From assembly GCF_000378165.1 (NCBI RefSeq), contig NZ_KB899337.1:62001-126000 (forward strand): DNA of 64,000 nucleotides. The letters are read 5' to 3'. Of this stretch, positions 51,120-63,769 are shown in pieces. The DNA comes from Saccharibacter floricola DSM 15669. GTDB lineage: Bacteria > Pseudomonadota > Alphaproteobacteria > Acetobacterales > Acetobacteraceae. Both the position numbers and the translations under genes were made by a program. The stretch's first letter is position 1. Each line of letters opens with the position of its first letter. The notes under the pieces are model-generated. The model had not been told where the DNA came from, ran no database searches, and saw only the letters and a list, made by a program, of their open reading frames with translations.

Positions 51120-51629
51120 ATGACAGAAGAGGCGTCCAGCGATCAGCCTAAGGCGCCCTCAAAAGAGGCGCCAGAGGGAAAGGCTGTGCAGGTTGGGTTT
51201 TATCATCTGACCCGCACAAGCTTAGAGGAAGCATTGCCGCGTTTGCTTGGACGCACGCTCGAGACAGGCGAAAGAGCGGTGGTGCGTTGCCCAACGGCGG
51301 CCCGCGTGACGGAGTTGGATAAGGCTTTGTGGGAGCAGCGCACCTTGCTCTGGCTCCCTCATGGTACAGCGAAGATGGGCTATGCAGCGCGGCAGCCTAT
51401 TTGGCTTTCAGCAAAAGATGAATGCCCCAACGGTGCGCGGTTTCTCTTTCGTATTGATGGTGCTGGCGAGGGGGCATTTGGTTCTATCGCCCGTGTGTTT
51501 GACCTTTTTGATGGACGTGATCATGAGGCTGTCGTGCAAGCGCGGCAGCGCTGGAAAGCGGCTAAAGCGGCGGGGTGTGAACTGACCTATTGGAAGCAGG
51601 AACCACAAGGTTGGCGACGAGCAGGATAG
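51120..51629 (+). CDS. holC: DNA polymerase III chi subunit
   Basis: Clamp-loader accessory subunit that contacts single-strand binding protein. It has 169 residues. The chi core starts at VGFYHLTRTSLEEALPRLL (about residue 26) and includes LLWLPHGTAKMGYAARQPIW and ARFLFRIDGA. The first 23 residues are polar and probably disordered. The hydrogenase-like cluster begins 7 bp downstream, so pepA-holC and that cluster may be transcribed together. Confidence 0.93.
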   Translation: MTEEASSDQPKAPSKEAPEGKAVQVGFYHLTRTSLEEALPRLLGRTLETGERAVVRCPTAARVTELDKALWEQRTLLWLPHGTAKMGYAARQPIWLSAKDECPNGARFLFRIDGAGEGAFGSIARVFDLFDGRDHEAVVQARQRWKAAKAAGCELTYWKQEPQGWRRAG

Positions 51630-51636
51630 TGTAGCG

Positions 51637-52968
51637 GTGTTCTATAGCGATTCACTGACAGTGTTTCTTGCGGGTCTTGTGTTATGCCTATTTCTTGGTG
51701 ACCGTGCGGTTCTGCATACTCTCTGGCACGGCTTACGGCCAAAAATGCGCGTGCCTCTGGATGGCCCGGCGTTAGAGCGTGCTTGTGCTTTGGGGCTCGC
51801 TTTCATCGTATTGATTGTACGCAATACGGATCTCACTGTCCTGCTCCTCGCTGTTTTAATGGTTGTATTAGGTGGGCGAACCGGGAATGTGTTTCTCCCT
51901 TTTTGGGGGATACCAGCCTTAGTGCTGTATGGCGTTTATCCATCATTATGGGGCGCCTTGTTGCTTCTTCCAGTGTTATTTTGGCCCGGTCAAAAGCGCG
52001 ATATTGCTCATGAGCAGCAATGTCTTGGTGCGCTTTTAAGTGTCGGGTTAAGTGCGCATATTACCCCTTTTCAGCCAGGTTTTTGGACACTTGGTGCTGG
52101 CAGCGTCATGATGGCATTGAGTGCATGGGGATATATGCGGAAATGGGCGGTGCTCTCTGGGCTTGTCCTCGTGTTGCGCCCTCTTTTTTTGCTGGGTGTC
52201 ATGATGGCCTCTCAAAAAGAAGGGCTTACAGCGAGCGCTCAGGCGGCGGCTTGTGCCTTATTGCTTGACCTTACCTTGTCTGTTGTGCGGGTTATTCAGC
52301 CGTCATGGCGGCTTTTGGCCTTATCTGTTCCGCCTTTGCCCGGGTTTATGGTCACTTGGCTCGGCATACATGCCACGCTTGGTTTAGTAACAGGAGCTGG
52401 GGGCTGGACTTTATCAGGTCTTGCCGTGGCGGTTATTTTGGCGCTTCTCGCTACCTTGGAGCTGATACGCTTTATCCCCACAATGCGTGCTACAGCGGTG
52501 ACACCGTCTTTTCTGCTGGTTGCGGCTTTGGTGCCGTCCTGCGTGATGGTCGCCGGTGGGCTGCTGGCTCATCATGGTGGCTATGATGGCTTGAGCACTT
52601 TTTCTTTCGCGACGATATGGTCATTCCAAGGAGGGGACGGCGCCGTGCTCGCTTTCCCGGCACTTTGGGGGCTTGTGTTGATTTTTTGGGGTGTTTTTGT
52701 GCGCCCATGGTCTCTCACGCGGCCTGTGATGTTACCAGGGACATTGCCTGTTATGACCTCAGATCGGCAACGCTGGTTAGCGTGGCTGGGTGGAGAGACG
52801 CCTTCTTTGCCTTGGAGATGGCGTCGTCAGCTCGTTGTCATGCGTTATTATGGGCGTGAAGGGAGCCGTCGTTTTCGACAGATGCAGGTGCCGGTGTCGG
52901 AAATGAGCCTAACGATTTGGCTGGTCTTTCTTGGCGCTGTGCTCGCTCTTTTGGGGCTGAGTTCATGA
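51637..52968 (+). CDS. HyfB-like antiporter-type membrane subunit of a hydrogenase-4/complex I-like complex (short form)
   Basis: A 443-residue protein with about twelve hydrophobic segments. Position in the cluster, SVPPLPGFMVTWLGIHATL (the loop seen in Mrp/NuoM/HyfB proteins) and the C-terminal basic segment after the last loop (RRQLVVMRYYGREGS) support a proton-pumping-subunit homologue. Family members of the HyfB type are about 670 residues, so this one is strongly shortened. I see no lysine inside a membrane segment, where pumping subunits have key lysines. The start is a GTG 7 bp after holC. It overlaps the next gene by 4 bp. Assignment by context and weak similarity. Confidence 0.6.
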   Translation: MFYSDSLTVFLAGLVLCLFLGDRAVLHTLWHGLRPKMRVPLDGPALERACALGLAFIVLIVRNTDLTVLLLAVLMVVLGGRTGNVFLPFWGIPALVLYGVYPSLWGALLLLPVLFWPGQKRDIAHEQQCLGALLSVGLSAHITPFQPGFWTLGAGSVMMALSAWGYMRKWAVLSGLVLVLRPLFLLGVMMASQKEGLTASAQAAACALLLDLTLSVVRVIQPSWRLLALSVPPLPGFMVTWLGIHATLGLVTGAGGWTLSGLAVAVILALLATLELIRFIPTMRATAVTPSFLLVAALVPSCVMVAGGLLAHHGGYDGLSTFSFATIWSFQGGDGAVLAFPALWGLVLIFWGVFVRPWSLTRPVMLPGTLPVMTSDRQRWLAWLGGETPSLPWRWRRQLVVMRYYGREGSRRFRQMQVPVSEMSLTIWLVFLGAVLALLGLSS

Positions 52969-53834
52969 AGCAGGATGTGTGGGCCCTTTTTGAGAATGGT
53001 TGTACAGCCTGCGCGCAGGTGGTGCTGTTGATGGTTCTAACGCCGCTCTGCGTCTGGGTGTTTGAGGAGCTGCCCTTATATCTATCAGGGCGAAGTGTGC
53101 GATCTGTTAGACTATCTTATACCCATTTTTGCACGTTACTATGGCGGGGGCTCCGCGCGGGATTCTGGCCGAGGGAAGGCATGGCCTTTGCGTTTATTAT
53201 GGTCGTGTTCTGGAGCCTTCCAGGCGTGGATGCTTTTATAGGGACGCATGAAGGGCAGTTTTTTGCACCTATGGCTGATCCCTTATTGATAGGAAGCCTT
53301 CTTTTAGTGGGGAGTGCCTGTCTCACGCCAGTTGTGCCCGTTGGGCGATATTTGGGAACGGCGCTGGTGCTATGTGTGGCCGATATTTTGCTCGTGCTTG
53401 CCGCTCCTGGCACAGATGGGTTGGTGGGTGTGCATACGGCGTTGCAGCTTACACCAGGGTCTGGCTTGGCCGGGACGAGCATATGCTGTGCGTTGGCGTT
53501 GGCTGTGGTGGCTCCTTTACCGACAGAAGCAGAGCTAACGCGTCTTTTTAGCGATGATGTATCTGTTAAGAAACGTCCTCAGCGTGACCAAAACCGTATG
53601 CTGTTGGGCCTTTATCACATGGGGTGGCTGCTCTTGGTGGCGGATCTTCTCCTTCCGGTGTTAATTGGTGGGCAAGGTTGGGCCGGGATTGTTGGTTTAG
53701 CAGCACGATTGGCGATGACGCTTGCACTCATAGTCGGGTTAAAGCTGAGTGCTGTTGAACGGTACCCGCGCTTATTGGCATTGTTGATCGGGTTGGGTTT
53801 TTTGATTGCGTTAGCCGGAAGATTTGCGACATGA
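52965..53834 (+). CDS. HyfC/NuoH-like membrane subunit
   Basis: A 289-residue hydrophobic protein with about eight segments. Order in the cluster and the loop VVAPLPTEAELTRLFSDDV, equivalent to the PFDLPEAE-type loop of NuoH/HyfC, support the call. The conserved basic N-terminal loop of HyfC (RxxxARxHxRQGP) is not recognisable here. The ATG is within the previous stop (ATGA), and its own stop overlaps the next start. NuoH-type subunits join the hydrophilic arm to the membrane arm near the quinone or proton path. This one is strongly diverged. Confidence 0.6.
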   Translation: MKQDVWALFENGCTACAQVVLLMVLTPLCVWVFEELPLYLSGRSVRSVRLSYTHFCTLLWRGLRAGFWPREGMAFAFIMVVFWSLPGVDAFIGTHEGQFFAPMADPLLIGSLLLVGSACLTPVVPVGRYLGTALVLCVADILLVLAAPGTDGLVGVHTALQLTPGSGLAGTSICCALALAVVAPLPTEAELTRLFSDDVSVKKRPQRDQNRMLLGLYHMGWLLLVADLLLPVLIGGQGWAGIVGLAARLAMTLALIVGLKLSAVERYPRLLALLIGLGFLIALAGRFAT

Positions 53835-54364
53835 CCGTCGGCTTTGCACTTGCCTTAGTGCTGGTATTAATCACGTTAGGGCGTGATGGGCGCTGGCTTC
53901 CCCTTTATGGTGTGTTGTGCGCGCTAACGGCGGCGTCATCAGGCAGTGGCATTATGGCTGTTTTGGTGGTGCTGGCGTTGCTGCTGTTTAATAGTGGGGC
54001 TTGGATCGGCTTGCGCGGTTTTTCCGCAGCACGGACATCCACGCATGTGCGGAGTGCTGAAGCGATTCTGCCTGTGGTGGCAACGCTTCTTATGCAGTTT
54101 GTCCTTGCCTTATCGGGGGCTGACCTTGGCCTTGTTCTCACCTTAGGGGTTGGGTTGGTTGTTGCTGGTTTGTGTTCGGCAGCGTGTGGGGCTCCACTCG
54201 CGCAGTTTTGTGGCCTCTTAAAAACAGCCGATGGGGTATTGATGGTGGCATGTTTGCTGGGGTCATGGGGGCTGTTTGTGACAGGAATAGCGCTATGGTC
54301 TGTCATGGCCGTTTTGGGCGTTACGCTTCTCCCTCGTCTCGCTTGGCGAAAGGTGGAGGAATAA
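53831..54364 (+). CDS. HyfE-like (NuoK-type) membrane subunit
   Basis: A 177-residue protein with about five membrane helices. HyfE is usually about 215 residues. Family resemblance is mainly positional, between the HyfC- and HyfF-like genes, and in the helix content. An acidic residue pair needed by NuoK for pumping is not evident beyond SAEAILPVVATLL. It overlaps its upstream neighbour by 4 bp; the next start is 3 bp downstream. Confidence 0.6.
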   Translation: MTVGFALALVLVLITLGRDGRWLPLYGVLCALTAASSGSGIMAVLVVLALLLFNSGAWIGLRGFSAARTSTHVRSAEAILPVVATLLMQFVLALSGADLGLVLTLGVGLVVAGLCSAACGAPLAQFCGLLKTADGVLMVACLLGSWGLFVTGIALWSVMAVLGVTLLPRLAWRKVEE

Positions 54365-54366
54365 CA

Positions 54367-55554
54367 ATGCCGGTCACGACGCTGCCCCATAGTGTTATTC
54401 CAGCAGGGATTTTCCCCTCTCCCGGGCTGTTCACATTACTATGTTGGCCCTTTTTGGTTACGTGGGTGCTGTGGGTGTCGGAGCGTGCCGGGCGTGCTCA
54501 AGAAATGGCCTATGCAGGTATGGTCATCAGTGCGCTTGGTTTGCTGGGATGCTCGCATGGTCTTGCCCTATCTGAAGGTATCGCGCTTGCTCTAGAATCC
54601 TGTGTGCCGGCCTTATTATTCATGCAGCTTCATCCCCATGGCGAGGGGAAGGGACGTCTTGGTGGGCGTGAGGGTGAACGCCTCCCTTTTCTCGTTGTTG
54701 GCTGTGTGCTGATGGGGTTTTGTTTGCGTTCCATGCTGGCTGTTACCGTTGTTATTGGAGCGGGATCAGTGTTGCTGGCGTGGTGGGACGGACGGGCTAT
54801 AAGGCGGGCGTTCCCTGCATGGATGATGGCGCGTTTGCGCCTTTGTGGCGTGGTGTTGAGTGCGTTAGGAGCCGTATTGCTGCATGGTGTTCCCTCTGAA
54901 GTGACACCGGAAGCCGCGCAGAATTTGGGGATTGTCCTCTCCGTTCTTGGGCTTGCGATGATGGCAGGACTGGGCAGCGCGGCAACAGCAGCACCCGAGC
55001 TGGATATGCTGGATGTTGGGCTGCGTTTTGCCGCCCTTACCGTGATGGTGCATTTGGCCGTGTATCCTTTAGCGCGTCATCTTATGTTGCTTTCTGGCCT
55101 TATTGCGCTGTTGATTACGATGCTCGGGCGAGGCTCTGTGTTCCCCTTATTGCCATGCCTGACGGGGCTAGGCGTGGTAGCCGCCGCGACGGAGCAAGAA
55201 ACAGCGCTCTTACTCCTTCAGGCCGGGGCTTTACTGGGGACGGTTTTGAGGGTGAGGGCGTCCTTTGACCCTAAAGAGCAAAGCACGCTGCCTGAACGTG
55301 CTCTCTTACCAGTGATGTTGGTGGTGCTTCTCCAATTAGGACATGTTTTGCCTTTAGGAGCATTGGTCATGTTGCTTCTTTGTTTAGCGTTGGGGCTGCG
55401 TGATGTTCGTTTGGCAGACCCTTCCCATCATGGTTGGCGCTTTTGGGTTGGGCAGGATCAGCAAACACGGTTATTAGTGAGCCTATTGATGATCTTGGCT
55501 TTTGTTGGTGTGTGCTTATCTGGGTGGAATACTGTACCAGGGTGGCGCGTATGA
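54367..55554 (+). CDS. HyfF-like antiporter-type membrane subunit (short form)
   Basis: A 395-residue protein with about twelve hydrophobic segments; HyfF is about 525. I start it at the ATG at 54367 with GGAGG 8 bp upstream. An in-frame ATG at 54172 would lie inside the HyfE-like gene. Only two lysines are present (GEGKGR and FDPKEQ), both in loops, so the intramembrane lysines of pumping subunits are missing. HyfF-like identity is by order in the cluster. Its stop overlaps the large-subunit start (ATGA). Confidence 0.6.
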   Translation: MPVTTLPHSVIPAGIFPSPGLFTLLCWPFLVTWVLWVSERAGRAQEMAYAGMVISALGLLGCSHGLALSEGIALALESCVPALLFMQLHPHGEGKGRLGGREGERLPFLVVGCVLMGFCLRSMLAVTVVIGAGSVLLAWWDGRAIRRAFPAWMMARLRLCGVVLSALGAVLLHGVPSEVTPEAAQNLGIVLSVLGLAMMAGLGSAATAAPELDMLDVGLRFAALTVMVHLAVYPLARHLMLLSGLIALLITMLGRGSVFPLLPCLTGLGVVAAATEQETALLLLQAGALLGTVLRVRASFDPKEQSTLPERALLPVMLVVLLQLGHVLPLGALVMLLLCLALGLRDVRLADPSHHGWRFWVGQDQQTRLLVSLLMILAFVGVCLSGWNTVPGWRV

Positions 55555-56993
55555 CCGTCATGACCGCTGTATTACAGCATAGTGAACGTGTTGGTTTGTT
55601 TCATTATCGGATAGAAACAGACCTCTGGCGCGCTTTGCTAGAGATGGTTGATAGGACCGTTACCTTTATCGCTTTATGGGTTGATGAGGACGAAGCAACG
55701 CTGCTTTTGCTCTATGATGAAAGCCCTATTTTATTGAGCACGGCTGTCGAAAAGCGCCGTTATTATGCTCCGTCACTTCGTTTCCCCGCAGCTCAATGGC
55801 ATGAACGTTTAGCGCGCGATCTTTGGGGGGTAGAGGCCCTTTCCGCGCGTGATGATCGCGCTTTGCTTGATGATGGATGCTGGCCGCTCACTTGGCCTTT
55901 AGCGCGTGAGCCGATCCCTGTGCAGGGGGAGAGAACATCACCTGACCACCGGCCGGGTATGGTGCCGTCGCGTACGGCGCTGCCGGGCTTATTGGGTGTG
56001 CGGTATGAGGTCGTCAATGGACGGGTGGAGCAGCTTGATGTGCAGATTGCACCGGGGCATCGTGGTGTACTCTCCCAACTTAAGGGACGCACAGTTGCTG
56101 AAGCATTGAAGATTATTAGTCGTGTCAATGCGGCAGGTTTTGTTGCTCATCCTTTGGCTTTTACACGTGCGGTAGAGCAAGCCCAAGCGCAGCTACCAAC
56201 ACCGCGTGAACGTGATACGCGCCTGATCTTGCTCGAGATTGAGCGTATGAGCGTGCATATGTTTGACCTTGCTCAGAGTGCGCGTGCTGCTGGAGCAGAG
56301 CTTTTAGCCACATATAGTGACCATATGCGCGAAGCTCTTGCCCAAACGTGTGAAGAGCATGGAGCATCACGTCGTTTAACCGATATGGTGCGGCCATTAG
56401 ATGAAGGTGGCTGTGCGATCTCTGAAATCGTTCCTCTTGCACAGGCTGTGATCACTGTTGTGTCAGTCTCTCTTCCGCGTCTTATTGGGCTGCATCATGT
56501 GTATGCTTCACGCTTGGAAGGGCTTGCCGTGCTCCCAACAGAGATGGCTTGGGCGTATGGGATTGGTGGGGTCGCTGGGCGTGCGAGTGGGCGGTATGTT
56601 GATCGGCGTGCGCTCGATATTGGCATGCGTCTTGATGCGCTTCGCTCATCGGGACGGCATGAAGGCTGTGCTTTGGCACGCAACCGTCAACGTTTGGCTG
56701 AAATAGGGGATTCAATTACCCTAATGGAGCGTATCCTAGCGAGCATTGGTCTTGATGATGAGGCGCAGGCTTATCCGGTGACTGATGAAGGGGTCGGTGT
56801 GGCGGAAAGCGCTCGCGGCGATATATGGTATTGGGTCACCTTACAACAAGGGAAAATTCAGAAGATCCATATACGTGACCCAGCGCTCCCCCTTCTGACG
56901 GTGCTCGGTGATATTTTAAATGGGCATAAACCAGAGGAGATTGGCGCAGCCTTGCTGTCTTTGGGTATTTCTACTGCCGGTGTGGCGTTGTGA
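55551..56993 (+). CDS. HyfG-like large subunit (NuoC-NuoD fusion) lacking the nickel-binding cysteines
   Basis: A 480-residue protein homologous to HyfG/HycE. Residues 1-125 are the NuoC-like domain (FPAAQWHERLARDLWGVEA matches the PAAxWxERExRDxxG motif). Residues 145-480 are the NuoD-like/large-subunit domain. GHRG at 169-172 and LILLEIERMSVHMFDLAQ are conserved. The N-terminal nickel motif RVCGIC is RVNAAG at 191-196, and the C-terminal DPCxxC region is SLGISTAG at 470-477. All four cysteine ligands are replaced, so no NiFe centre can form. The alignment was made by eye. The start is the ATG overlapping the previous stop. Confidence 0.85.
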   Translation: MTVMTAVLQHSERVGLFHYRIETDLWRALLEMVDRTVTFIALWVDEDEATLLLLYDESPILLSTAVEKRRYYAPSLRFPAAQWHERLARDLWGVEALSARDDRALLDDGCWPLTWPLAREPIPVQGERTSPDHRPGMVPSRTALPGLLGVRYEVVNGRVEQLDVQIAPGHRGVLSQLKGRTVAEALKIISRVNAAGFVAHPLAFTRAVEQAQAQLPTPRERDTRLILLEIERMSVHMFDLAQSARAAGAELLATYSDHMREALAQTCEEHGASRRLTDMVRPLDEGGCAISEIVPLAQAVITVVSVSLPRLIGLHHVYASRLEGLAVLPTEMAWAYGIGGVAGRASGRYVDRRALDIGMRLDALRSSGRHEGCALARNRQRLAEIGDSITLMERILASIGLDDEAQAYPVTDEGVGVAESARGDIWYWVTLQQGKIQKIHIRDPALPLLTVLGDILNGHKPEEIGAALLSLGISTAGVAL

Positions 56994-57009
56994 TAAGGAG
57001 TGTATAAGC

Positions 57010-57486
57010 ATGTCATCAGGCCCATCGACATTGCTTTTTGCTTTTATGGATGCGCAGCGTTGGCGCCCTCGTCCTGTCCCACGTAAGAGAGGGGGCATGA
57101 TCCGGCTTTATGCGTTAGAGACAGGCAGTTGTGAGGGCTGTGCCATGGAGATTGCAGCACTGAACGGCAGTACAATCCCCCTTGAAGGAAGCGGTTTCCA
57201 GCTTGTGGAGGGGCCAGAAGAAGCTGACTGGTTGCTTGTAACGGGAGCTGTGACACGCAGCAGTGCATCTGACCTCGTTGAAGCTTGGCAGGCGATGCCA
57301 GCAGGGAAGTCCATGGTGGCTGTAGGGGCTTGTGCGTTAGATGGTGGGCCTTTTCAGGCAGATTATGCCACTCTTGGTGGGCTTGAGAAGATCAGCCGGG
57401 TTTATCGCACCATTCCCGGCTGTCCACCATCGCCACGTGATATCTTTCAGGCTTTGGTTGCGTTAGCCGATGAAGGATTTTCTTGA
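57010..57486 (+). CDS. HyfI/NuoB-like small subunit with complete [4Fe-4S] ligands
   Basis: A 158-residue protein of the NuoB/hydrogenase small-subunit family. All four proximal-cluster cysteines are present: C41 and C44 in TGSCEGCAMEI, C108 in GACALDGGPF, and C138 in IPGCPPSP. The cluster between large and small subunits can therefore form, although the NiFe site cannot. The ATG has AAGGAG 8 bp upstream. It ends the cluster, and its last 40 bp overlap pssA on the opposite strand. No ferredoxin-like HyfH gene follows. Confidence 0.88.
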   Translation: MSSGPSTLLFAFMDAQRWRPRPVPRKRGGMIRLYALETGSCEGCAMEIAALNGSTIPLEGSGFQLVEGPEEADWLLVTGAVTRSSASDLVEAWQAMPAGKSMVAVGACALDGGPFQADYATLGGLEKISRVYRTIPGCPPSPRDIFQALVALADEGFS

Positions 57487-60389: not shown

Positions 60390-61250
60390 TCAGGCGTCGA
60401 TATCAAGGCCGATATCAAGAGCGGTGACGCTATGAGTTAGCCAGCCGAGGGAGAGGACATCAACCCCAGTTTCAGCCTTAGAGCGCGCTGTATCGGGGGT
60501 GATGCCTCCTGATGCTTCGGCAATGGCACGACCATTGATCATGGAAACCGCGCGGCGGAGTTGGTCGGGGTCCATATTATCCAGAAGATAGGCATCAGCT
60601 CCACCGCATGACAAAGCTTCTTCAAGCTGCTCAAGGGCATCCACTTCCAGCTCGATCTTCATCAAATGCCCGGCCCGCCCGCGAGCCGCTTTCAGGGCTT
60701 CCTTAATCGTACCACCGAGCAGGGCAATGTGATTGTCTTTGAGCATAATCGCGTCATCCAGCCGATGACGATGGTTGCTTCCCCCACCAGCACGCACGGC
60801 GTATTTTTGCACGGCGCGTAAACCGGGAAGGGTTTTGCGGGTGCAGCAGACATCAACGCCTGTGCCTTTCACCGCATGAACAATGGCTGCTGTTGTGCTG
60901 GCAATCCCGCTCAGATGGGAGAGCAGATTAAGAGCGACACGCTCACCTCCCAAAATAGCAGCGGCAGAGCCCTCAACTGTGGCCAGAGCATCACCGGGTT
61001 TAATGATCGCTCCTTCTGCCATAAGGGGTGTAAAGTGCGTAGCTCCGTCAAGCGCATGAAAGGCGAGGTGGGCACCGGGTAGTCCCGCAAGGACACCATG
61101 ATGGCGCGCTCGGAAGACAGCGCGAAGTGTTTTTTGATGACCAAGGAGTGCTTGGGTGGTGACATCCCCGCCTGTCCCAAAATCTTCACGCAAAGCGGTG
61201 GTGACGAGGGGTTCCCAAAGAAGGTCGGGGAGGAAAAGGGCAGCGGTCAT
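60390..61250 (-). CDS. nadC: Nicotinate-nucleotide diphosphorylase (carboxylating)
   Basis: Quinolinate phosphoribosyltransferase, third step of NAD synthesis from aspartate. It has 286 residues. Blocks: LREDFGTGGDVTTQALLGHQ, CTRKTLPGLRAVQKYAVRAG, GGSNHRHRLDDAIMLKDNHI and EASGGITPDTA. It lies 11 bp downstream of nadB in the nadA-nadB-nadC operon. Confidence 0.97.
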   Translation of the reverse strand: MTAALFLPDLLWEPLVTTALREDFGTGGDVTTQALLGHQKTLRAVFRARHHGVLAGLPGAHLAFHALDGATHFTPLMAEGAIIKPGDALATVEGSAAAILGGERVALNLLSHLSGIASTTAAIVHAVKGTGVDVCCTRKTLPGLRAVQKYAVRAGGGSNHRHRLDDAIMLKDNHIALLGGTIKEALKAARGRAGHLMKIELEVDALEQLEEALSCGGADAYLLDNMDPDQLRRAVSMINGRAIAEASGGITPDTARSKAETGVDVLSLGWLTHSVTALDIGLDIDA

Positions 61251-61261
61251 GAGTGAAGCTT

Positions 61262-62731
61262 TCAGGCAGAGGGGAGATCGACAAGTGTCCAGCTTTGGCG
61301 CTGGGGAGAGCGGCTTGTTGGAGCGTCTTCACGCCAATGACTGCCACGGCTCTCTGTGCGATGAAGGGCAGCCCAAGCGATAAAGGAGGCAGTCAGAGCT
61401 GGGCCATAATGGCGCGCTAGCGGGAGTGCTTTTTCTAACAGGGCGCGTAATCCGTCTTCATGGCGCAAAATTCCCGCCTGCTCTTCCATCAGATCGTTTA
61501 GTGTCCATGTGGGAGACAAGAAAGGAACGCGCGGCGTTGGCGCGCTGAGTGGGATGAAAGGCGTGCTGTGCGCGTCAATATCTTCGGCAATCCATTTCCC
61601 GCAGACGAGCGCCTCAAGGAGAGAGTTGCTCGCTAAACGGTTCGCGCCGTGTAGCCCTGTGCAGGCCACTTCACCATTCGCCCATAATCCTGGGAGGGAA
61701 CTGCGGCCATGATGGTCAACAGCGATACCGCCCATATGGTAATGCATGGCCGGTTTAACGGGGAGGCGCTGCGTGTCTGGGTCTAACCCCGCTGCATGGC
61801 AGGCTTTGGTAATAGCAGGGAAGCGGGCGCTGAAGGGGCGGCCTTTGAAATGACGCCCATCAAGATAAACCTGATGACCGGCTTTCAGTTGAGCGGCGAT
61901 CGCACGACTAACGACATCACGAGGGGCCAGCTCTTTGGTAAAGCGTTCGCCATTTTCTAAGACGAGAGGGGCACCAGCGCCACGCACGGCTTCACTAATG
62001 AGAGGGCGACGTGTTTGTGTTGGGCCAGCCGCTAGGGAGGTCGGATGGAATTGCGTAAATTCCATATCTCCCAAACGTGCCCCGGCCAAGGCAGCATGGG
62101 CGATGCCCATCCCTTTGTTGCTCAGAGGGATAGTGGTGTGGCGATAGAGCCCGCCACAGCTCCCAGTGGCGAGAATGCAGCATTGTGTGGGGATAAATCC
62201 GCCGGACACCCACACCCCACGCAGTAACCCATCTTCATGATGGAGCCCTTCGAGAGTTTGGCCTGTCAGCACATGAATGCGCGATGTTGCGCGTACTTTT
62301 TCCCACAATGAAGAGGTAATATAAGCACCGCTTTGATCGCCTCCTGCATAAACAACGCGCGGTCGGCTATGCGCCCCTTCGAGATGAAGGGCGAGAGAGC
62401 CCGATTCATCACGAGCAAGCGGCACACCCCAGCGAAGGAGCGTTTCAACAGCAGAGGGGCCGGCTTGCGTGATCGCTCGCACGATCGCTTCATCACAAAG
62501 ACCAGCACCTGCGCGGAGTGTATCGCGTGCATGATCCTCAGGGGTATCATCCGGCCCAATGGCCGCAGCCATTCCGCCTTGGGCGAGCTGGGTGGAGGAG
62601 CCCTCACCGTTGGAGTGAGGAGAGAGCAGCACGCATGGTTGTTTGAGGTGGAGCGCCACAGACAGGCCCGCTAAGCCGGAGCCAATAATGACGGGCCAGC
62701 CTGTGTAGGAAGAAAGGAGCGGATCTGTCAT
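61262..62731 (-). CDS. nadB: L-aspartate oxidase
   Basis: FAD enzyme that oxidises aspartate to iminoaspartate, first step of de novo NAD synthesis. It has 489 residues. The FAD Rossmann motif is VIIGSGLAGLSVAL. Family stretches are STQLAQGGMAAAI, MEFTQFHPTSL, HYHMGGIAVDHHGRSSLPGL and GLHGANRLASNSLLEALVCG. Its C-terminal domain is somewhat short but complete. It starts 48 bp after nadA, with a hairpin in the gap. Confidence 0.96.
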   Translation of the reverse strand: MTDPLLSSYTGWPVIIGSGLAGLSVALHLKQPCVLLSPHSNGEGSSTQLAQGGMAAAIGPDDTPEDHARDTLRAGAGLCDEAIVRAITQAGPSAVETLLRWGVPLARDESGSLALHLEGAHSRPRVVYAGGDQSGAYITSSLWEKVRATSRIHVLTGQTLEGLHHEDGLLRGVWVSGGFIPTQCCILATGSCGGLYRHTTIPLSNKGMGIAHAALAGARLGDMEFTQFHPTSLAAGPTQTRRPLISEAVRGAGAPLVLENGERFTKELAPRDVVSRAIAAQLKAGHQVYLDGRHFKGRPFSARFPAITKACHAAGLDPDTQRLPVKPAMHYHMGGIAVDHHGRSSLPGLWANGEVACTGLHGANRLASNSLLEALVCGKWIAEDIDAHSTPFIPLSAPTPRVPFLSPTWTLNDLMEEQAGILRHEDGLRALLEKALPLARHYGPALTASFIAWAALHRTESRGSHWREDAPTSRSPQRQSWTLVDLPSA

Positions 62732-62779: not shown

Positions 62780-63769
62780 TTAGAGGGCGAGCATCCGTTC
62801 GACGGAACGACGAGCAGGCTCTTGATGCTCAGCGGCGATGGTGACTTCTGTGCTCATTGTTTCCAGCGACCGACGAATGTTCTTTAACGTAATGCGCTTC
62901 ATATGAGGGCATAGATTGCAGGGACGTACAAACTGCGTGTCTGGGAACATCGTCGAAAGGTTATCGCTCATAGAGCATTCAGTAATGAGCAACACCTTAT
63001 CAGGATGATTATTCTCAATATAGCTGATCATACTCGCTGTAGAGCCTGCGTGATCGGCTTCAGCAACGACTTCTGGTGCACATTCTGGGTGAGCAATGAC
63101 GTGGAGGCTGTCTTTATGCATGCGCCGATATTGGCGGATCTCTGGTGGGGTGAAGCGCTCATGCACTTCGCAGCGTGCCGACCATGTGTGCATTTTAATA
63201 CCCGTTTCGTTTTCAATATTACGAGCGAGATATTCATCTGGGATCATAATAACCTCGGGCACACCAAGGCTTTCAACAACGCGGCGGGCGTTCCCCGAGG
63301 TGCAACACACGTCCGTTTCGGCTTTTACAGCAGCAGAACTATTGACGTAGGTGACGACGGGAACACCGGGATGGCGTGCTCTGAGTGTGCGAACATTCTC
63401 CGCTGTGATGCCCTCAGCGAGGGAGCAGCCGGCCATTTCATCGGGGATGAGCACGGTTTTCTCTGGGTTCAGCATTTTCACGGTTTCAGCCATGAAATGC
63501 ACCCCAGCCATAAGGACGACCTGTTGTTTAATATTTTGTGCTTCACGCGCTAGGGCGAGGCTGTCTCCACGAATATCGGCGACACCGTGGAAGATCTCTG
63601 GCGTTTGGTAATTATGGGCCAAAATGACAGCATCATGCTTATGTTTAAGCGCGAGGATGGCTTCGATGTCATCAGCAAAAAGCTGCTCCCAATCTTCCCG
63701 CGCCATGAGGGAAGAAACCGGACGATAGAGATCATCACGTGACGGAAGAGCGACGGTGGCCTGCACCAT
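62780..63769 (-). CDS. nadA: Quinolinate synthase
   Basis: [4Fe-4S] enzyme that condenses iminoaspartate with dihydroxyacetone phosphate to quinolinate. It has 329 residues. The three cluster cysteines are in DEMAGCSLAEG, the TDVCCTSGNA region and RPCNLCPHMKRI. VILAHNYQTPEI and GDSLALAREAQ are substrate-site blocks. AAGGA lies about 10 bp before the ATG. First gene of nadA-nadB-nadC, preceded by an inverted repeat at 63795-63815. Confidence 0.97.
   Translation of the reverse strand: MVQATVALPSRDDLYRPVSSLMAREDWEQLFADDIEAILALKHKHDAVILAHNYQTPEIFHGVADIRGDSLALAREAQNIKQQVVLMAGVHFMAETVKMLNPEKTVLIPDEMAGCSLAEGITAENVRTLRARHPGVPVVTYVNSSAAVKAETDVCCTSGNARRVVESLGVPEVIMIPDEYLARNIENETGIKMHTWSARCEVHERFTPPEIRQYRRMHKDSLHVIAHPECAPEVVAEADHAGSTASMISYIENNHPDKVLLITECSMSDNLSTMFPDTQFVRPCNLCPHMKRITLKNIRRSLETMSTEVTIAAEHQEPARRSVERMLAL

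Follow-up and report, generated by a model that had tools for sequence, protein, structure and literature searches.

The 64,000-nucleotide stretch of Saccharibacter floricola DSM 15669 analysed here (the window; contig NZ_KB899337.1, positions 62,001 to 126,000) carries six hyf-like genes, which we tentatively read as encoding an old, vertically inherited complex of the Ehr type, a membrane-bound electron-transfer unit with one [4Fe-4S] cluster that would do no canonical ion pumping. All six frames are open on the plus strand at 51637-57486, in the order hyfB, C, E, F, G and I, just as a sequence-only reading of the window had described them. The complex is not a [NiFe] hydrogenase and, judged by its sequences, belongs to the known Ehr kind; the family-restricted branch that contains it (33/41 rows of the large-subunit alignment), an Ehr with most proton-path residues also gone, looks new. 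The founding Ehr paper is said to be that of Marreiros et al. 2013. In the excerpts on which we rely, Ehr complexes are described as built from group-4-like subunits that lack NiFe ligands and as having a role that is unknown or, at most, suspected, with M. tuberculosis Rv0082-Rv0087 and comammox Nitrospira as examples (PMC6349859, PMC6728331, PMC10284858); an excerpt of PMC6901956 treats Rv0079-Rv0087 of M. tuberculosis, and redox-coupled charge translocation is suspected for Ehr in the excerpted literature.

The large subunit has lost the NiFe site

In an alignment with E. coli HyfG, a positive control with cysteine at all four NiFe columns (CCCC), the large subunit of the window (480 amino acids, a.a.) carries N, G, S and G, confirming that RVNAAG and SLGISTAG have replaced the two ligand motifs and that the NiFe cysteines are gone. 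A CxxC pair was kept in 0/41 large subunits in this alignment, whose rows are the window and 40 Acetobacteraceae loci among the better matches, the large subunit having been recovered from each locus (genomes and loci are numbered below with G and L, respectively); a single Cys at the NiFe columns was seen in one row, L070. With the pairs absent in 41/41, a recent ligand loss is ruled out, and the event cannot be placed in the lineage of the window, where the sequence-only reading had put it; as far as the alignment tells, the loss is old. Nor have the pairs moved elsewhere in the protein, a possibility which that reading had raised: because the sole cysteines lie at 110, 267, 288 and 373, the large subunit has no displaced CxxC. 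HypD was absent from the window genome and from 24/26 genomes tested, G143 and G076 being the two that have it, in a search whose control was positive in 4/14 named genomes. Because the NiFe ligands and HypD are both missing, the complex cannot be a [NiFe] hydrogenase, which supports its earlier assignment as Ehr-type. The window genome also gave no match to PF00384 (molybdopterin oxidoreductase), the family that would include the formate dehydrogenase of a formate hydrogenlyase.

The HyfG-like nature of the protein held up. A profile of 36 large-subunit rows matched HycE (7z0s) at 8.1e-55, and the AlphaFold2 (AF2) model, with a predicted local distance difference test score (pLDDT) of 89, had HycE as its best Foldseek match (1.5e-22), while Pfam reported PF00346 (3.5e-10) and PF00329 (7e-4, just under its cut-off). 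The closest named relative was from Saccharibacter sp. EH611 (94%), and a large-subunit match was obtained in 194/200 Acetobacteraceae genomes, a count that takes in NuoD of complex I. We take Nqo4 His38 and Tyr87 to be the quinone-site residues of NuoD; the His is kept as H170 and is invariant across the 36 rows. In two canonical Ehr rows, L061 and L053, a stray Cys (SFNCSYSG and SFNCSCSG, respectively) stands beside the lost DPCxxC place and is possibly a vestige of it.

Purifying selection and a family-restricted branch

By their substitution patterns, the six genes are under purifying selection. Against L033, the 94% relative, the ratio of nonsynonymous to synonymous substitution rates (dN/dS) was 0.104 for hyfB, 0.076 for hyfC, 0.067 for hyfE, 0.103 for hyfF, 0.119 for hyfG and 0.064 for hyfI, and 0.009-0.159 for the eight neighbouring genes with a match; two neighbours, presumably lptD and lptF, had no match in the compared L033 stretch. 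Against the more distant L034, dS was saturated for many genes. The full six-gene set is present in 21/21 members of the window's closest clade, and the complex is retained even in genomes of ~2 Mb (the host genome of the locus has 2.38 Mb over 42 contigs). The sequence-only reading had suggested looking for dN/dS near 1, for frame breaks and for the same set in other Acetobacteraceae; the low ratios and complete sets sustain its view of an intact complex. As a separate observation, synonymous divergence from L033 was 0.35-0.42 for hyfB, hyfC and hyfF and 0.03-0.24 for hyfE, hyfG, hyfI and the flanks.

In the large-subunit tree, rooted at the midpoint for drawing only, the window falls in a 21-row branch (92/78; 100/100 when L041 is added), which is nested in a 33-row branch (80/96); E. 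coli HyfG lies on the canonical Ehr side, on a long branch (2.96). The HyfF profile of the branch found 35/200 family genomes in 18/102 genera and, across the class, 5/385 genomes, three of them from Acetobacteraceae. The remaining two class matches, in G285 (L107) and G320 (L106), are weak and belong to two other families. The window genome has one PF00346 and one PF01058 match, both from the hyf-like complex; NuoD was not found there, the sole PF00346 match being the hyfG-like subunit. A general replacement of complex I is ruled out by the two PF01058 genes in many clade members.

The [4Fe-4S] site is kept

The small subunit of the window has exactly four cysteines, the cluster ligands listed in Table 1, and each stands at the residue given by the sequence-only reading. 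All four are kept in 40/43 Ehr small subunits read, and because they are kept in 21/21 members of the window's closest clade, a redox role appears plausible for the complex. The earlier label "redox or coupling complex" therefore survives in its first half; coupling holds only partly, since most HyfB, HyfF and HyfE proton-path residues are gone (see below). No ferredoxin-type subunit is encoded among the six genes. The exceptions to the four cysteines, G001, G100 and G157, all lie outside the window's clade. In G001, Ser replaces the first cluster Cys. G100 and G157, the two genomes from their genus (L071; L108 9274-9894), have kept the operon and lost 3/4 cluster cysteines, giving an almost metal-free member.

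The hyfI gene lies away from hyfG in 10/21 clade members yet is present elsewhere, three of the ten copies being a few kb downstream and seven at distant sites. That half of the clade had lost the small subunit is ruled out, as hyfI had moved. In L035, a TonB-receptor gene lies between hyfG and the downstream hyfI.

Most proton-path residues are missing

For the four membrane proteins, neither Pfam nor NCBIfam gave a match at E values up to 1. The HyfC profile matched HycD (7z0s_D) at 2.5e-23, and a hidden Markov model iterated from E. coli HyfC reached the window HyfC at 3.6e-30. HyfB had no PDB sequence match and a best Foldseek E of 0.3; for its AF2 model (pLDDT 77), VIA-align placed HycC (7z0t_C) first, with Z 19.6 over 323 residues, the match running from chain residue 70 onward. 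HyfE and HyfF connect to E. coli HyfE and HyfF solely through intermediate family members, and the HyfF profile had no PDB match. HyfB is about one-third shorter than in E. coli (443 versus 672 a.a.), and HyfF has 395 a.a. versus 526.

We tracked eight charged E. coli columns that we take to be part of the proton path: E142, K221, K252 and E407 in transmembrane helices 5, 7, 8 and 12 (TM5, TM7, TM8 and TM12) of HyfB, E143, K232 and E406 of HyfF, and E159 of HyfE. L061 (G143), from the same family, keeps 8/8 of them, and L054 keeps five. Within the 33-row branch, the HyfB TM12 column is charged in 0/32 rows and the TM8 column likewise in 0/32, 18 of the latter being gaps (L041, with no HyfB by profile, is out of the HyfB counts, and no separate HyfB was taken for L053 and L055). 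The HyfB TM7 column, in a poorly aligned region, shows one Lys and seven acids, and the TM5 column is a gap in 32/32 rows, which carries no information on charge. The HyfF TM7 column has one His in 32 rows, and its TM12 column has an acid in 1/32 (Asp, L058). At the HyfE Glu column, 0/31 rows are charged, with the window and several relatives carrying an Asp one place later. HyfB TM12, where IPPLNGFISEW of E. coli and LPPSSGFAGEW of L061 correspond to VPPLPGFMVTW of the window, appears from these alignments to be the firmest loss. At the level of aligned residues, the 33-row branch has lost most of the recognisable proton path of HyfB, HyfF and HyfE.

Locus layout and neighbouring genes

The genes and their surroundings are listed in Table 1. 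The six genes had been called overlapping, which is true of three of the five junctions (4 bp at B-C, C-E and F-G) and not of E-F and G-I, with gaps of 2 bp and 16 bp, respectively. The end of holC lies 7 bp before the start of hyfB, and holC and the hyf genes are possibly co-transcribed. The plus-strand order is pepA (our presumed name for the first gene), holC, hyfB, hyfC, hyfE, hyfF, hyfG and hyfI, followed by CDP-alcohol phosphatidyltransferase and phosphatidylserine decarboxylase genes on the minus strand; past these phospholipid genes come one plus-strand gene and then nadC, nadB and nadA on the minus strand. Promoter-like sites numbered 7 versus 4.4 +/- 2.2 in shuffles, and terminator-like sites 11 versus 12.3 +/- 4.0, neither count standing out clearly. 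Beyond the window, a 365-a.a. frame without a Pfam match (L110 2747-3844, minus strand) overlaps the start of nrtR and holds the position that hyfI occupies in other genera.

Table 1 Features of the hyf-like locus and its context (window coordinates unless a locus is named).
Feature	Position	Strand	Basis
hyfB-like antiporter-type membrane subunit, 443 a.a.	51637..52968	+	AF2 model best aligned to HycC
hyfC-like membrane subunit, NuoH/HycD type	52965..53834	+	profile vs HycD; iterated HMM from E. coli HyfC
hyfE-like membrane subunit, 177 a.a.	53831..54364	+	position; E. coli HyfE link via family members
hyfF-like antiporter-type membrane subunit, 395 a.a.	54367..55554	+	position; E. coli HyfF link via L051/L069
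hyfG-like large subunit with NuoC- and NuoD-type domains, NiFe cysteines absent	55551..56993	+	profile HycE, Foldseek
RVNAAG, residues 191-196, where RVCGIC expected	56121..56138	+	alignment with E. coli HyfG
SLGISTAG, residues 470-477, where DPCxxC region expected	56958..56981	+	alignment with E. coli HyfG
hyfI-like small subunit, C41, C44, C108, C138	57010..57486	+	PF01058 5.6e-23
holC (DNA polymerase III chi), context	51120..51629	+	PF04364 3.2e-32
nadC, context	60390..61250	-	PF01729 3.2e-55
nadB, context	61262..62731	-	PF00890 1.6e-74; TIGR00551 at 444.5 bits (cut-off 452.75, narrowly missed)
nadA, context	62780..63769	-	PF02445 2e-105
nrtR, immediately upstream of nadA and outside the window	L110 1866-2750		NrtR_WHD 2.5e-21

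Proximity of hyfI to nadA

The amount of the complex may be tied to NAD metabolism, a weak inference drawn because hyfI overlaps the gene preceding nadA in several genera. Seven genomes from four genera (G008, G022, G046, G085, G126, G149 and G192) have hyfI 1.2-1.4 kb upstream of nadA, the two genes sharing a strand. The hyfI stop overlaps the next start codon by 4 bp in 6/7 loci and by more in G126, and the frame that follows carries an NrtR winged-helix domain in the three loci scanned (L094, L097 and L098). Because the six of these genomes placed in the tree share a single branch (100/99), the adjacency probably arose once and was then retained. Eight genomes, that of the window among them, likewise form a single branch (88/84) and have hyfI 4.8-8.5 kb from nadA; closeness totals 15/43 nadA-bearing genomes.

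Some observations count against such a tie. No closeness was found in the other 28/43 genomes, where the two genes are often on separate contigs, and G040, which has the complex, has no NadA and no NadB over the cut-off, a point that also bears against our overall reading; its sub-cut-off NadB match, a 604-residue frame, is inferred to be a succinate dehydrogenase flavoprotein. In G037, an eighth relocated hyfI (L095 7059-7553) lies 59 kb from nadA, with an amino-acid kinase/PUA gene ~2 kb from it. A NUDIX gene adjoins hyfI in L045, L094 and L098, and the NUDIX genes of L045, L047 and L098 resemble ADP-ribose diphosphatase-type models weakly, with scores below the cut-offs.

Proposed electron transfer and its alternatives

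Under the reading that we tentatively prefer, the complex would be anchored in the membrane and transfer electrons through its one cluster. A substrate or carrier might reach the cluster via the former NiFe cavity, which small residues now line, exchanging electrons with a partner that is perhaps ubiquinone near HyfC; the membrane part would then be an anchor, perhaps with quinone contact, without canonical ion pumping. Besides G040, several findings weigh against this. No donor or acceptor was identified for the complex, and the quinone Tyr of Nqo4 is not kept, A194 standing in its position. HyfF retains the TM5 Glu in 2/32 branch rows (L057 and L070), with His in L069; the HyfC loops of the branch carry acids at several, mostly unmatched, places; and charged residues in hydrophobic segments are at least as many as in E. 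coli (for HyfB, 8 in the window versus 7), a count that rules out membrane subunits without buried charge. Because of the HyfC acids, the L057 and L070 Glu, the L058 Asp and the HyfB TM5 gaps, a loss of the entire proton path was narrowed, after a re-count, to most of the HyfB, HyfF and HyfE residues. In the genus of G100 and G157, redox work is dispensable for retention of the operon, since 1/4 cluster Cys is left.

This last case also fits a doubtful but serious alternative, that the complex is no redox enzyme any more and persists as a partner with a structural, assembly or sensing role, by analogy with the deranged bc1 and COX1-like proteins. Excerpts of PMC10715153 provide a precedent in the same family, with Acetobacteraceae proteins kept without cofactor ligands, and the missing ferredoxin-type gene agrees with it; the four Cys in 21/21 clade members argue the other way, as does the window genome, which has no complex I to stabilise. 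We consider it unlikely that redox reactions drive ion pumping by the complex in the way usually supposed for Ehr, through a proton or sodium path rebuilt from other residues: the undiminished charge in hydrophobic segments, the Asp beside the HyfE Glu place, the HyfC loop acids and the antiporter-like fold that the models suggest is retained would suit such a pump, whereas the branch shows no charge at HyfB TM12 or TM8 or at the HyfE Glu, one acid at HyfF TM12, and a HyfB shortened by a third. If L-aspartate oxidase (NadB) gave the electrons of aspartate to the complex, which passed them on to ubiquinone and was so tied to NAD synthesis, the proximity of hyfI to nadA in the seven and the eight genomes would find an explanation; this is improbable given the 28/43 genomes without it, and G040 weakens NadB as an obligatory donor. 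That a hydrogenase is here decaying toward eventual loss is hardly credible, for all the high divergence and the membrane subunits that match no family model, in view of the dN/dS of 0.064-0.119, the complete gene sets in 21/21 and the retention in ~2 Mb genomes.

Comparison with known systems

With E. coli hydrogenase-4 and formate hydrogenlyase (Hyf and Hyc), the complex shares the order B, C, E, F, G, I and its best structural matches, HycE, HycD and HycC; unlike them, it has no NiFe cysteines, no HypD and no genomic PF00384 protein, and hyfA, hyfD, hyfH and hyfJ are not among the six genes. Folds of the NuoC/D, NuoB, NuoH and NuoL/M/N types recall complex I, but the six genes include no NADH module, the neighbours are pepA-type, holC-type, phospholipid and nad genes, and the quinone Tyr of Nqo4 is Ala here. 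The membrane-bound sulfane reductase (MBS), which carries out ferredoxin-linked sulfane reduction at its proximal cluster, is matched in its MbsD-like fold (6u8y_X, Z 18.0, HyfB model) and its large chain (6u8y_L, 3.2e-34, profile), and its cluster-only chemistry would be analogous; it differs in that no ferredoxin-type gene is found among the six here, and acetic acid bacteria, as obligate aerobes, are set apart from MBS hosts.

In Acetobacteraceae, the deranged bc1 and COX1-like proteins are likewise respiratory proteins retained after loss of cofactor ligands, as described in excerpts of PMC10715153; the hyf-like complex differs in keeping its Fe-S ligands, and so extends the derangement reported for this family's respiratory complexes by a case with a conserved Fe-S site. 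In that paper "hyf" had no match and "hydrogenase" one, unrelated, and no paper on the Acetobacteraceae complex was found among the matches listed from the open-licence literature.

The closest likeness is to Ehr, in the group-4-type large and small subunits (HycE 8.1e-55; PF01058 5.6e-23) without NiFe CxxC pairs and in the antiporter-like and NuoH-like membrane subunits of the operon (HyfB, Z 19.6; HyfC, 2.5e-23), with the difference that the Acetobacteraceae branch is also without most canonical HyfB, HyfF and HyfE proton-path residues. Ehr has been reported in many lineages, with no established function. The Acetobacteraceae, aerobic bacteria with laboratory species among them, offer a graded series, from a canonical Ehr (L061) through a branch without most pump residues to a genus without most cluster ligands, which separates the selected parts (large subunit, Fe-S subunit and membrane anchor) from the unselected ones (NiFe site and proton path) and puts the Ehr question within reach of simple deletion tests.

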